Assembly (NCBI RefSeq): GCF_000504085.1
Contig: NC_022792.1
Location: forward strand, 1,454,001-1,518,000
Source of the DNA: Pseudothermotoga elfii DSM 9442 = NBRC 107921
GTDB lineage: Bacteria; Thermotogota; Thermotogae; Thermotogales; DSM-5069
Direction: 5' to 3'
Length of the DNA stretch: 64,000 nt
A program made the position numbers and the translations under genes. The notes under the pieces are model-generated. The model did no database searches. It was not told the origin of the DNA and saw only the letters and a program-made list of their open reading frames with translations. Of the stretch, positions 2,046-9,092 are shown in pieces; position 1 is the first letter of the stretch; the number at the start of each line of letters is the position of its first letter.

Positions 2046-3062
2046 ATGACCACATTGATAAAAGTAGATCCACTCAATCCAAACGAAGGTATATTGAGAA
2101 AAGCGGCACAGACGATAAAAGAAGGCGGTGTCGTCGCATTTCCTACTGAAACAGTCTATGGACTTGGCGCAGATTGTTTTAACATCAGTGCCGTATTAAA
2201 AATCTTTCAAATAAAAAACAGGCCCGCAGACAATCCTCTGATAATTCACATATACGACAAAAAACAACTTGAAGAGCTGGTAGAAGGAGATATAGAGCAA
2301 AATTCGTATGTAATGGATGTCTTTTGGCCTGGACCGGTAACATTCATCTTCAGAAAAAAAGCGAATGTACCGAGAGAAGTAACTGGTGGGCTTGAAACTG
2401 TTGCCATCAGAATGCCAAGTCATCCAGTCGCACAGGTTTTTTTAAGGCTTTCCGGTACACCAGTAGCAGCTCCAAGCGCGAACCTCTCTGGAAAACCAAG
2501 CCCAACAAGAGCCGAGCACGTGATAGCTGACCTGTACGGCTCGGTTGATGTAATAATAGACGGTGGTGAAACGCCGCTTGGTTTGGAATCAACTATCGTC
2601 GATCTTTCAAGGGACTATCCTGTCCTGTTAAGGCCGGGACCTGCAACAATTGAGGAAATAAAGAAGATAGTACCTAATCTTTATATCCCGGATTTTCTTC
2701 TGAAAAAAGAGAATGAACCAGTTAAACCTCTTGCACCTGGCATGGCCTACAGGCATTATGCACCGGATAAACCTCTTATCCTTGTAATCAACGAGAAAAA
2801 ACTCGATGAAGTTTTGAGCAAACACCCAGATTCACCAATCATCTGTCCTGAAGAAATGTCAGATAGATTCTATGGGCGCAAAACAATAATAATGGGAAAA
2901 TTAAGAGAGCCATTCACGATAGCTCAAAATTTATTTCATGTGCTTCGCGAAGTAGATTCTCTAAATGCAGAATCGGTCATAGTGATTGGCTTAGAACCTC
3001 AGGGCATACTCTTTTCTGTTATGAATCGCTTGAAAAAAGCGGCGAGCGAGGTTATTGATTAA
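2046..3062 (+). CDS. sua5: L-threonylcarbamoyladenylate synthase (Sua5/YrdC/YwlC)
   Basis: 338 residues: an N-terminal YrdC domain (about 1-200; FPTETVYGLG near residue 35, KNRPADNPL near 57, a conserved APSANLSG) and a C-terminal Sua5 domain (about 230-338). This is the long Sua5 form rather than short TsaC. It makes threonylcarbamoyl-AMP from threonine, bicarbonate and ATP, the first step of t6A37 formation on ANN-decoding tRNAs; transfer is by TsaD/TsaB/TsaE. It starts at an ATG behind GGAGG and ends with a TAA, followed by a 200-bp gap leading to mgtE. Confidence 0.93.
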   Translation: MTTLIKVDPLNPNEGILRKAAQTIKEGGVVAFPTETVYGLGADCFNISAVLKIFQIKNRPADNPLIIHIYDKKQLEELVEGDIEQNSYVMDVFWPGPVTFIFRKKANVPREVTGGLETVAIRMPSHPVAQVFLRLSGTPVAAPSANLSGKPSPTRAEHVIADLYGSVDVIIDGGETPLGLESTIVDLSRDYPVLLRPGPATIEEIKKIVPNLYIPDFLLKKENEPVKPLAPGMAYRHYAPDKPLILVINEKKLDEVLSKHPDSPIICPEEMSDRFYGRKTIIMGKLREPFTIAQNLFHVLREVDSLNAESVIVIGLEPQGILFSVMNRLKKAASEVID

Positions 3063-3095
3063 TAACACTTACGTTTTCAAAACCCCTGACTCTCA

Positions 3096-3112
3096 AATGC
3101 CTTGAATTAATT
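3096..3112 (+). repeat. 17-bp exact copy of an internal mgtE segment in the leader region
   Basis: A 17-base word starting CAAATGCCTTG in the sua5-mgtE gap recurs inside the mgtE coding sequence near 3685-3701. In both places it can be read as K-C-L-E-L preceded by T-P or T-L. The match could be chance or a tiny duplication remnant. No function is claimed. Confidence 0.5.
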
Positions 3113-3199
3113 TTGTAACTTTCGAGTGTTCATATCTTTAAAAACCATGTGAACTAACAGAAGTTTCAAAGCGTAAAATATCTGTGTAGATCATTATTA

Positions 3200-3252
3200 G
3201 GAGGTGAATTGTCTTGGAAAGCACCAGTAGTTCTTTTAGTTTACCACCGTAA
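3200..3252 (+). CDS. Candidate mgtE leader peptide (12 aa, ends Pro-Pro-stop)
   Basis: A strong ribosome-binding site (GGAGGTG, 3200-3206) precedes a TTG at 3214-3216 with 7-base spacing. The frame reads M-E-S-T-S-S-S-F-S-L-P-P and stops at TAA 3250-3252, only 20 bases before the mgtE start. The same GGAGGTGAATTG string is used again for mgtE at 3261. Codons for the last Leu-Pro-Pro (3240-3248) can pair with the mgtE ribosome-binding site. Proline-rich leader peptides are known to sense Mg2+ for enterobacterial mgtA/mgtC, so the arrangement is suggestive. An alternative overlapping frame from TTG 3209 (about 19 residues, stop within 3266-3268) also exists; which is translated is not known. 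Confidence 0.45.
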
Positions 3253-3269
3253 ATTTTTAAGGAGGTGAA
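3240..3269 (+). promoter_or_regulatory. Hairpin sequestering the mgtE ribosome-binding site
   Basis: 3240-3248 (TTTACCACC) can pair with 3261-3269 (GGAGGTGAA) in 8 of 9 positions (one T-G pair, one A-A mismatch), leaving a 12-base A/T-rich loop. The 5' arm is the Leu-Pro-Pro codons of the candidate leader peptide and the 3' arm is the mgtE Shine-Dalgarno. A ribosome paused on the proline codons would hold the stem open. The pairing is seen directly; the regulatory reading is inference. Confidence 0.5.
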
Positions 3270-3272
3270 TTG

Positions 3273-4613
3273 ATGAAAGTAAAAGTCCAGGTTGATATCA
3301 AGAAACTTATTGAAAACGGTGATTTCAGGACTTTGAAAACCATTCTTTCTCAACAGGAACCCGCCGAAATCCTTGAATTGATTGAAGAGCTCCCGGCAGA
3401 TGAAAAAATAATTGTTTTTAGATTCTTGTCCAAAGACCAGGCAGCCGTGGTATTCAGTGAACTTGAAACAGATGACCAAATGGAACTCATAGAGCTCTTT
3501 AAAGAAGAAAGATTAAGTGAAATTATTTCTTCTATGGACCCGGATGACAGAGCAGAATTGCTCGAAGAAATGCCTGCGAATGTTGTGAATAAGCTTCTTT
3601 CCTTTCTGACCCCGGAAGAAAGAAAATTAACCTTATCCTTGCTGAATTATCCTGAAAACTCGGCTGGACGTTTAACTACTCCCAAATGCCTTGAATTAAA
3701 CCCGAATATGACAGTCAGCGAAGCTCTGGAGAAAATTAGAAAAGAAGGTAAAGACAAAGAAACTGTTCATCTGATGCCTGTAATAGATAAATCGAGAATA
3801 CTGCTTGGTACTGTTGAATTGCAGGACCTGATTTTTTCAGAACCAGATTTATACGTGGAACAAACAATGGATTCCGAACCAGTTTTTGTTTATGCAACAA
3901 CAGACCAGGAAGAAGTAGCCCAGATAATGAAAAAATACGATTTGATAGCAATCCCTGTTGTGGATAGTGAACAGAGGCTCATAGGGATAATTACTATAGA
4001 TGATATTGTAGATGTTATCGATGAAGAAGCCACAGAAGACATTCAAAAAATGAGCTCAATCGTGACAACTGAACAACCATATTTACACCTTAGTGGCTGG
4101 AAGCTCATTTTCAAAAGATTACCATGGCTTATAGCTTTACTTTTGATGGAGAGCATAAATGGTAATGTAATAGCAAAATTTGAGCACTTTCTTGCTTCTC
4201 TACCTATAGTTGCTGCTTTTATGCCTACAATGATGGACACGGGCGGGAACATAGGTTCTCAGATATCTGCACTTGTAATAAGAGGCATGGCGCTTGGAGA
4301 CATCAAACTTAAAGATTGGTGGAAGGTTCTTCTCAGAGAAACAGCTATAGGACTCGTTCTTGGTGCCATACTTGGAATAGTCTTATTCTTCAGATCCATG
4401 ATGATAAGTCAAGCCCTTGAAATAGGATTAGCAGTTTCAGTAGCACTTATGGTGGTTGTAATCTTTGCAAATGCTCTTGGGGCGGCTTTGCCATTCCTCG
4501 CCCGTCTGATTAAAATAGATCCTGCGATAATGGCAGGCCCTTTGTTGACAACTATAGTCGATGTTTCTGGAATAATTATGTATTTTATGATAGTTCAGTG
4601 GATACTTCGGTAG
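3273..4613 (+). CDS. mgtE: Magnesium transporter/channel MgtE
   Basis: 446 residues in the MgtE order: a superhelical N-domain (about 1-130, repeated acidic E/L-rich helices), two CBS domains (about 130-255), then a linker helix and five membrane segments (about 275-446, beginning KRLPWLIALLLMESINGNVIAKF as a plug/TM1 region). It is a homodimeric Mg2+ channel closed by cytosolic Mg2+ binding. I choose ATG 3273 (5-6 bases after GGAGGTG) over the TTG at 3270. A short leader frame and an SD-blocking hairpin lie just upstream. A second Mg2+ transporter, CorA, is encoded 3.4 kb downstream. Confidence 0.95.
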   Translation: MKVKVQVDIKKLIENGDFRTLKTILSQQEPAEILELIEELPADEKIIVFRFLSKDQAAVVFSELETDDQMELIELFKEERLSEIISSMDPDDRAELLEEMPANVVNKLLSFLTPEERKLTLSLLNYPENSAGRLTTPKCLELNPNMTVSEALEKIRKEGKDKETVHLMPVIDKSRILLGTVELQDLIFSEPDLYVEQTMDSEPVFVYATTDQEEVAQIMKKYDLIAIPVVDSEQRLIGIITIDDIVDVIDEEATEDIQKMSSIVTTEQPYLHLSGWKLIFKRLPWLIALLLMESINGNVIAKFEHFLASLPIVAAFMPTMMDTGGNIGSQISALVIRGMALGDIKLKDWWKVLLRETAIGLVLGAILGIVLFFRSMMISQALEIGLAVSVALMVVVIFANALGAALPFLARLIKIDPAIMAGPLLTTIVDVSGIIMYFMIVQWILR

Positions 4614-7111: not shown

Positions 7112-8026
7112 ATGAAAAAACTACTTTTGTTAGCTCTCACTGTGATTTCTGCTATTTCCCTCAGTTTTGATTTAAAAACTTTTAACATTCGTGAGTTTGA
7201 TGGAAAATTGCCTTTAATAAGTCTTGAAACCTTTATGAAGAACAAAAATTATACATCAGTAGAAGGTATTGTTTATGAAATGCCTTCCGAAGAAAAATTT
7301 AGAACAAAAGCCGACGTCGATCAGAATCTGCTTTCGAAAGAAAAAATTGCAGGCATTCTTGTGATCACAATTGACGAGCTTGCTCTTTACAATGGAAAGA
7401 AAAATACTGCTCTGGTAGCTGTTAACGGAGTTGTTTACGATGTATCTTCTTCCAAATTATGGCGAGATGGATCTCACAGAAATATGCACAGCGCTGGTCA
7501 GGAGTTAACATACGAGATCTTGAAATTATCTCCTCATGGACCTGTAAAACTTGATCAAATGAGGCCATTTGGAATACTTGTTTTCACTTATACTCAACTT
7601 GGTAAATATGGGAAAGATGGTACGAAAAATTATGTTTCTGCCTTTGGTGTTGTGTATGATATGGCTGATTCTAAAACTGTACAAAAAGGTGTTCATTTCG
7701 GTTATCCTATGGGCAGCGAGTTGACATTTGAAATTTTGCAAAGACCCGGGCATGAAGATATGTTAAATCGTATTTACCCGGTAGGGTTGCTTGTTTTCAG
7801 CAGGGAAGATTTGAAGCACTTTAACGGAACAAAAGTGAAAGTCATATCAAAAGATTTAATGAAATCTTTCGTGGGGATAAACGGCATAGTTTATGATGTT
7901 ACTGAAATTGATGAATGGCAGCAGAAAATCGGGGTTGATTCAAATTACAGAACCGGGATGTTTTATACAATATCGGATTTTTCTCCTGAGGAAGAATTAA
8001 CCAGAGTCGGATTTGTTATCCAATAA
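7112..8026 (+). CDS. Exported protein with three cytochrome-b5-like heme/steroid-binding-type repeats
   Basis: 304 residues with a signal peptide (about 1-18). Three repeats follow, about 81-151, 154-224 and 226-300, after a degenerate stretch at 30-60. Each has an F/I-T-x-x-x-L-xx-Y/F-N/K-G beginning and a V-N-G-V-V-Y-D-V core; the first two retain the W/H-rich segment and a SPHG or RPGH end. This matches the COG4892 'predicted heme/steroid binding protein' pattern, not classical cytochrome b5: the HPGG heme ligand motif is absent. Whether it binds heme or another ligand is open. The ATG has GGAGGTG. The end lies 17 bp before corA. Confidence 0.75.
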   Translation: MKKLLLLALTVISAISLSFDLKTFNIREFDGKLPLISLETFMKNKNYTSVEGIVYEMPSEEKFRTKADVDQNLLSKEKIAGILVITIDELALYNGKKNTALVAVNGVVYDVSSSKLWRDGSHRNMHSAGQELTYEILKLSPHGPVKLDQMRPFGILVFTYTQLGKYGKDGTKNYVSAFGVVYDMADSKTVQKGVHFGYPMGSELTFEILQRPGHEDMLNRIYPVGLLVFSREDLKHFNGTKVKVISKDLMKSFVGINGIVYDVTEIDEWQQKIGVDSNYRTGMFYTISDFSPEEELTRVGFVIQ

Positions 8027-8042
8027 ATTGGAGATGTTAAAT

Positions 8043-9092
8043 ATGACGCCAAAAAATTATGCAAAAAAACTTGGTTTGCCACCAGGGACACTCATATATA
8101 CTGGAAAAGAAAAGAATCATTTTGAAATCTCAATTCTTGATTATGATGAAAATAATTTCAGAGAAATTCAGGAAACTGATGTAGAGGCATCCTTTTCATT
8201 TAAAGATTCTCCTACAGTAAGCTGGATAAATATCACTGGCTTGCATAATACGGAAACAATACAGAAAATAGGCAAATACTACAGTATACATCCTCTGAGT
8301 CTGGAAGATATTCTAAATATTCATCAAAGGCCTAAAATCGAGCACTTTGATACATACAATTTTATCGTTTTAAAAATGTTGACTTACAATCAGGAATCCT
8401 GTGAGATTGAATCGGAGCAGGTCAGCATAGTTTTTGGAAAGAATTACGTTCTTACTTTTCAGGAAAAATCTGGCGATGTATTTGATTCTTTGAGAAGCAG
8501 GATAAAAGCAGCCAATGGTATTATAAGAAAAAGCGGCAGTGAATACCTCGTATATGCGATTATAGATGCTATAGTTGATCACTATTTCTTGATTCTTGAG
8601 CATCTGGATGAAAATCTGGAAGAACTCGAATCAGAGGTTGTATCAAAACCATCTTTGGAAACTGTTCAAAAAATAAACCAGTTGAAAAAGAACCTCATAA
8701 CGATGAGAAAATCGATCTGGCCATTGAGAGAACTGCTGGCAAAACTTCTCAGAAGTGAATTTGTGCTGGAAAGTTCTGTCATCTACTTTAGAGATGTTTA
8801 TGATCACACTGTGCAAATTATCGACATTATTGAAAGTTTAAGAGATATATCGTCTGGAATATTAGATGTTTATCTATCAAGTGTAAGTAACAAAACAAAT
8901 GAAATTATGAAAACTTTAACTATCATAGCAACCATTTTCATACCACTGACTTTCATTGTGGGCATATATGGAATGAATTTTGCCCATATGCCTGAGCTTG
9001 AATGGGAATTTGGATATCCATTCGTTCTTTTCTTGATGGCAGGCATGGTTATAACAATGATATTTTATTTCAAGAAAAAGAAGTGGTTTTAG
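8043..9092 (+). CDS. corA: Magnesium/cobalt transporter CorA
   Basis: 349 residues, nearly the length of T. maritima CorA (351). Same layout: cytosolic funnel (about 1-240), long stalk helix (PLREL...YFRDVYDHT), then TM1, the signature YGMNF at the pore mouth and TM2 ending in a basic KKKKW tail. It forms homopentameric Mg2+/Co2+ channels. Among several in-frame starts I take ATG 8043 (GGAG at 8030-8033, 9-base spacing); upstream TTG/ATG codons overlap the SD or the previous gene. The 3' end overlaps the convergent FAD gene by 23 bp. Confidence 0.95.
   Translation: MTPKNYAKKLGLPPGTLIYTGKEKNHFEISILDYDENNFREIQETDVEASFSFKDSPTVSWINITGLHNTETIQKIGKYYSIHPLSLEDILNIHQRPKIEHFDTYNFIVLKMLTYNQESCEIESEQVSIVFGKNYVLTFQEKSGDVFDSLRSRIKAANGIIRKSGSEYLVYAIIDAIVDHYFLILEHLDENLEELESEVVSKPSLETVQKINQLKKNLITMRKSIWPLRELLAKLLRSEFVLESSVIYFRDVYDHTVQIIDIIESLRDISSGILDVYLSSVSNKTNEIMKTLTIIATIFIPLTFIVGIYGMNFAHMPELEWEFGYPFVLFLMAGMVITMIFYFKKKKWF

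Follow-up and report, generated by a model that had tools for sequence, protein, structure and literature searches.

Enterobacteria are known to gauge Mg2+ with peptide leaders, those of mgtA, mgtCBR, mgtB and corA. Functionally, the nearest known systems to the leader reported here, which precedes the Mg2+ channel gene mgtE in Thermotogota, are mgtQ and mgtL. The former is an ORF of 8 amino acids before Salmonella mgtB and resembles the mgtE leader in its very small size, in standing directly before the gene of a Mg2+ transporter, in its acidic residue 2 and, as is most likely here, in controlling translation of the downstream gene; it differs in its 219-nt operon gap, its alternative stem-loops and a proline that is dispensable (PMC8092293). 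In Thermotogota, in contrast, 11–33 nt separate leader and gene, a search for a conserved stem was negative, every leader ends in Pro-Pro-stop and MgtE belongs to a different protein family. The first-pass annotation of this locus had taken a translational version before mgtE in Thermotogae to be new; for a translational leader of a Mg2+ transporter gene in general, mgtQ, which controls translation of mgtB, is a precedent (PMC8092293). The mgtL leader of E. coli and Salmonella mgtA likewise combines early acidic residues with prolines ahead of a Mg2+ transporter gene, and these residues destabilise ribosomes, an effect that Mg2+, bL31 and EttA counteract (PMC11552253, PMC11282234). Neither mgtL nor the mgtE leader has a known protein partner. 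Unlike the mgtE leader, mgtL acts by Rho-dependent transcription termination via a long structured leader, carries its EPDP motif N-terminally and lacks a Pro-Pro end; the destabilising motifs that have been studied are repeated (EPDP in MgtL), whereas most mgtE leaders have a single early acidic residue.

Three further systems share individual features with the mgtE leader. The uORF of corA in E. coli and Salmonella, corL, has a weak UUG start and its translation is inversely related to transporter expression, as is proposed here, but it acts by Rho termination in a long leader and has few acidic or proline residues (PMC11552253). In TnaC, the leader of the tryptophanase operon, a Pro codon is in the P site with a stop codon in the A site, an arrangement encoded by all 40 mgtE leaders that we identified. 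TnaC also needs Trp12 at a fixed distance together with free tryptophan (PMC8429421, PMC8092293), whereas in the mgtE leaders the distance from start to Pro-Pro is anywhere between 8 and 18 residues, each of the three stop codons is used, and no tunnel residues were found at a constant spacing from the last proline. The M-box (ykoK, RF00380) is also an upstream control of mgtE but is a 169-nt Mg2+-binding RNA; we found it before 5 of the 20 Bacillota and Spirochaetota mgtE genes searched. Before mgtE of our window, the 64,000-nt stretch of Pseudothermotoga elfii DNA that was analysed, and of 17 Thermotogota relatives, no Rfam riboswitch or element was detected and RF00380 gave no match. The only sub-threshold Rfam match, at 3036–3103, was to an animal microRNA family and was taken as chance.

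In composition the leaders would fit the mgtL/mgtQ type, with Pro-Pro in 40 of 40, an acidic residue in 39 of 40 and usually only one such residue early on, but no alternative RNA stems switched by leader translation and no conserved stem masking the Shine-Dalgarno (SD) sequence were found. We have not filed the mgtE leader with mgtL and mgtQ because its sequence, transporter family, RNA architecture and universal Pro-Pro-stop are different. A literature search found nothing on an mgtE leader peptide or a Thermotogota uORF, which is a weak negative given that subscription journals were thinly covered. Thus we found no earlier report of the mgtE leader peptide of Thermotogota; the kind of system is known and the leader sequence is unrelated.

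The leader ORF and its surroundings

All features described here lie on the forward (+) strand of the window. The leader is a frame of 12 codons plus stop at 3214–3252 (TTG GAA AGC ACC AGT AGT TCT TTT AGT TTA CCA CCG TAA), with its TTG at 3214–3216 and its TAA at 3250–3252, and encodes M-E-S-T-S-S-S-F-S-L-P-P. It is preceded by a strong SD, GGAGGTG (3200–3206), has glutamate as residue 2 (3217–3219) and terminates in CCA CCG TAA, that is Pro-Pro-stop (3244–3252). The SD of mgtE, again GGAGGTG (3261–3267), begins 8 nt past the leader stop, and the ATG of mgtE at 3273 lies 20 nt from that stop. The first-pass annotation, which had reported a 12-residue frame from TTG 3214 with a strong GGAGGTG and a Leu-Pro-Pro-stop end 20 nt before mgtE, was confirmed in the sequence on each of these points. 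The mgtE gene (3273–4613) encodes a Mg2+ channel with MgtE_N, two CBS and MgtE domains (Pfam PF03448, PF00571 and PF01769) and is the sole PF01769 match in the whole genome; sua5 is the gene upstream of the leader and mgtE. By MgtE, the nearest named relatives are an uncultured Pseudothermotoga and a Thermotogota bacterium.

A putative promoter −10 element, TAAAAT, is predicted at 3174–3179, and the distance from its expected start site to the leader start is about 28 nt. The same TAAAAT stands 40–43 nt upstream of the leader start in 10 of 10 loci of the window's own family (f1), and TAGAAT stands 42–45 nt upstream in 8 of 8 loci of family f2. The 5' UTR implied by this conserved element in f1 and f2 is close to the 'common' class of 26–32 nt in T. 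maritima (PMC3636130), and the predicted promoter would make the leader the first ORF on the mRNA. Among the 51 long ORFs of the window, only 2 are preceded by an SD-led short ORF placed in this way, and only the one at mgtE ends in Pro-Pro.

Conservation of the leader and selection on its peptide

We gathered mgtE orthologs from Thermotogota and read their upstream regions in gene orientation, with the conservation set defined as 46 loci whose MgtE is at least 50% identical to that of the window. At 40 of the 46, an SD-led ORF of 8–18 codons ending in Pro-Pro-stop was found 11–33 nt before mgtE, so that the conserved Pro-Pro frame for which the first-pass annotation proposed a comparison of relatives is present. 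These leaders span at least five families; each has an SD-like sequence ahead of its start and lies immediately upstream of, and co-oriented with, mgtE. The gap between leader stop and mgtE SD ranges from 0 to 21 nt. Aspartate or glutamate occurs within residues 2–4 in all leaders except that of L036, and the middle of the peptide, which is hydrophilic, varies in both sequence and length. Examples, with the first residue written as the codon reads although it would be Met, are LESTSSSFSLPP and LEGTSSSLSLPP in f1, VESTSLPP in f2, VEYPSYSSNKPP and VDYPSCCNPLNKPP in f3, MEDYPGSRPP in f6, MGEDYPSSRPP in f8, and MDSTGSFFEFSDLPP, MGSKSKNYSDLPP, MDNCDSSKQKPP and MEDPLSSYSNKPP in f9. Since it is conserved at 40 Thermotogota mgtE loci and unique in the window, the leader goes beyond what chance would give.

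Six of the 46 close mgtE loci (L026, L039/L183, L042, L043/L181, L044 and L045) lack a leader; two of these are second copies of mgtE, with a leader present before the other copy of the same genome. More generally, the second copies L042, L044, L050 and L176 are without a leader in genomes that also have a leader-bearing copy, which suggests a division of labour between a regulated and an unregulated mgtE. In L026/L182 (G055), GTG GAA CAA AGA AGG TGA alone precedes an mgtE of the leader-bearing clade, and this short frame is possibly a decayed leader. The more distant MgtE relatives (37–45% identity) have no leader.

The peptide itself is under selection, because pN/pS is low in the leader frame (0.14, 0.16, 0.26 and 0.40 in four groups of equal leader length) and 0.61–3.9 in the other two frames of the same groups. 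Columns at third codon positions vary more often, 23 of 51 against 20 of 102 (Fisher p = 0.002, an optimistic value given that the leader sequences are related). Pro-Pro is kept in every leader while its codons vary between CCA, CCG, CCT and CCC. An overlapping 19-residue frame from TTG 3209, pointed out earlier as an alternative, does exist, but protein selection on it is absent (pN/pS 0.79 in the family against 0.14 for the 12-residue frame) and we rejected it as coding.

The leader was also sought outside this set. No Pro-Pro leader was found before mgtE at any of 75 loci of Bacillota and Spirochaetota, the two phyla to which the outgroup sample was confined. A DNA pattern for the leader, run on 103 Thermotogota genomes, returned the mgtE leaders and about seven other matches; five of these loci were read, and none had an SD or a plausible downstream gene. 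From the five loci read, a Mg2+ regulon sharing the leader was rejected. Sites of the CCNCC/GGAGG pattern number 12 in the genome, against 6 in a reversed control, and that of mgtE is the only SD-led short leader of such kind recognised among them. A search of viral contigs found no leader. At one further locus, L061 (G000:C1:1824310-1824338), the SD of a gene for an S-layer-like protein is preceded, a few bases upstream, by a short frame ending in GERIPP-stop.

Pairing of the leader with the mgtE ribosome-binding site

The first-pass annotation had proposed that the Leu-Pro-Pro codons mask the mgtE SD. The segment TTTACCACC (3240–3248), a potential anti-SD arm, does pair with GGAGGTGAA (3261–3269) at 8 of 9 positions, including one G-U pair and with an A.A mismatch; the codons, placed in that same segment, are actually at 3241–3249. 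The hairpin is predicted at −11.4 kcal/mol at 37 °C, −2.7 kcal/mol at 65 °C and −0.3 kcal/mol at 75 °C, and in the window the RNA of the leader and mgtE start folds no better than shuffled sequences (z = −0.54). The outer helix is not kept in close relatives, being lost even within the window's own family, and is kept in few relatives overall.

CCNCC pairs with GGAGG automatically, whatever the rest of the leader. We therefore compared the leaders with synonymous recodings, using uniform codons at 37 °C and the codon use of the window genes at 65 and 75 °C. Real leaders pair less than recoded ones: mean SD pairing is 0.34 against 0.49 at 37 °C, and mean SD-to-proline pairing is 0.26 against 0.48 at 65 °C and 0.21 against 0.44 at 75 °C. 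At 65 and at 75 °C alike, 33 of the 40 loci have an mgtE SD that is more open than the mean of the controls. The recodings at all three temperatures and the pairing counts led us to reject SD masking as a conserved mechanism, and no conserved pairing of the leader with the downstream SD, as in a translational attenuator, was found. Because the leaders pair less than their recodings, the window hairpin is weak at 65 °C and its helix is unshared, masking is not the conserved part, and the hairpin is largely peculiar to the window sequence. The covarying masking stem that the first-pass annotation proposed to look for in relatives is thus not borne out. In f2 (L012-L019), a genus-level group, the first proline codon is mostly CCT, giving full CCTCC/GGAGG complementarity, unlike other groups, and f2 may be the one group with real masking.

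Placement of the leader, proposed mode of control and alternatives

In 31 of the 40 loci, 17–32 nt separate the last proline codon from the start codon of mgtE, and the footprint of a ribosome is roughly 28 nt. By these distances, a ribosome waiting at Pro-Pro-stop would run into initiation at mgtE, or leave it little space, in most loci; in the remaining nine the spacing is 35–39 nt and a parked ribosome need not clash with it. In L174 (G100) and L175 (G099) the leader stop is 0–1 nt from the core of the mgtE SD, so near that a ribosome stalled at the prolines would cover this SD. As the leader end and the mgtE SD have no room here for simultaneous use, the two loci lend themselves to a natural test of occlusion. 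The geometry favours occlusion or restart over a halted ribosome that opens the SD, and the earlier idea that slowing on the prolines frees the SD is geometrically doubtful in most loci and impossible where stop and SD adjoin, as in L174 and L175. Nothing resembling a terminator was detected between leader and mgtE, and the few bases there could not accommodate one; control is therefore most likely exerted at the level of translation. To that extent the translational-control leader first suggested for this locus stands, although masking by leader codons does not stand as its general mechanism.

The leader is very probably translated, conserved as a peptide and active in cis on mgtE, as far as comparison of sequences can tell. 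In E. coli, a stop codon that follows Pro-Pro is terminated poorly (PMC3834316); PP-stop is depleted at bacterial protein ends (odds ratio 0.44), and clades without RF3 show a stronger depletion of C-terminal proline (PMC7246954). No RF3 scored above the curated cut-off in any of 103 Thermotogota genomes, the matches seen scoring like related GTPases, and bL31 and EF-P are present in the phylum. We propose that Pro-Pro-stop would slow termination here as in E. coli, that a ribosome finishing the leader would sit on or beside the mgtE initiation site, and that leader occupancy would consequently compete with mgtE initiation. At low Mg2+, ribosomes would leave the acidic, proline-containing leader early, or fewer would be parked, and the mgtE start would be freed; with ample Mg2+ the leader would be completed and parked ribosomes would hold mgtE down. 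This last step, in both signal and direction, is the least certain part and is proposed because of the analogy with mgtL and because the regulated gene is a Mg2+ channel. By that analogy Mg2+ is, on balance, the probable signal, and occlusion, with mgtE switched on at low Mg2+, is a tentative choice to which we give slightly less than even weight. The combined reading, a cis-acting nascent-peptide leader with slow termination beside the mgtE start and Mg2+ as the likely signal, seems to us evenly poised between right and wrong. More speculative, though possible, is that a universal Pro-Pro-stop set against the mgtE start forms a minimal Mg2+ sensor, in which the ribosome would be both sensor and roadblock without an RNA switch or a terminator.

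Coupling without sensing, in which leader ribosomes, merely kept in place by slow termination, restart at mgtE 11–33 nt further on and the leader thereby raises mgtE output, would suit the tight and conserved spacing, the strong leader SD and the overlap-like layout of L174 and L175. Alone, however, it leaves the selection on the peptide and the near-universal early acidic residue unexplained, and the mgtE SD is strong and needs no help; we consider it rather unlikely. The switch originally put forward, in which ribosomes slowed on the prolines at low Mg2+ keep the proline codons and the mgtE SD from pairing and so free mgtE translation, has in its favour the hairpin predicted for the window at 37 °C and the full CCTCC/GGAGG pairing of most f2 leaders, but the reduced pairing relative to recodings, the feeble hairpin at 65 and 75 °C, the helix lost within the own family and the covered SD of L174 and L175 make it an unlikely account.

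Instead of Mg2+, the leader might read proline supply, charged tRNA-Pro or the activity of EF-P, a kind of signal that has been proposed for Salmonella mgtP. Pro-Pro is universal in the leaders, and mgtP is described as sensing charged tRNA-Pro (PMC8092293), but most leaders have only two proline codons, at the very end, where release rather than proline incorporation follows, and EF-P is reported not to help release after proline (PMC7246954), so we hold this signal to be quite improbable. That the leader is conserved as a protein sequence would also fit a peptide acting in trans as a small MgtE partner. This is hardly plausible for a hydrophilic peptide of 8–18 residues that varies in its middle and length and always lies immediately 5' of mgtE. 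Although the leaders are short and those of f1 are closely related in sequence, chance, or an RNA or promoter element that resembles a frame, deserves almost no weight against 40 loci in five or more families, in-frame purifying selection and outgroups at 0 of 75.

If the leader does gauge Mg2+, the use of the ribosome for this purpose would have arisen more than once, here apparently without an RNA switch; more than one origin would follow from the unrelated leader sequence, the deep-branching and mostly heat-loving phylum and the different transporter family. The locus would also offer a compact, conserved natural case for regulatory use of slow Pro-Pro-stop termination, in a phylum where RF3 was not found. 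The leader suggests that the ribosome itself sets the amount of MgtE channel, probably according to Mg2+. A second ORF resembling a Mg2+ transporter, of CorA type, lies about 3.4 kb downstream of mgtE (8013–9092, + strand) and has a GMN motif near its C-terminus, recognised by eye; two types of Mg2+ transporter, mgtE and the CorA-like ORF, thus share one neighbourhood.
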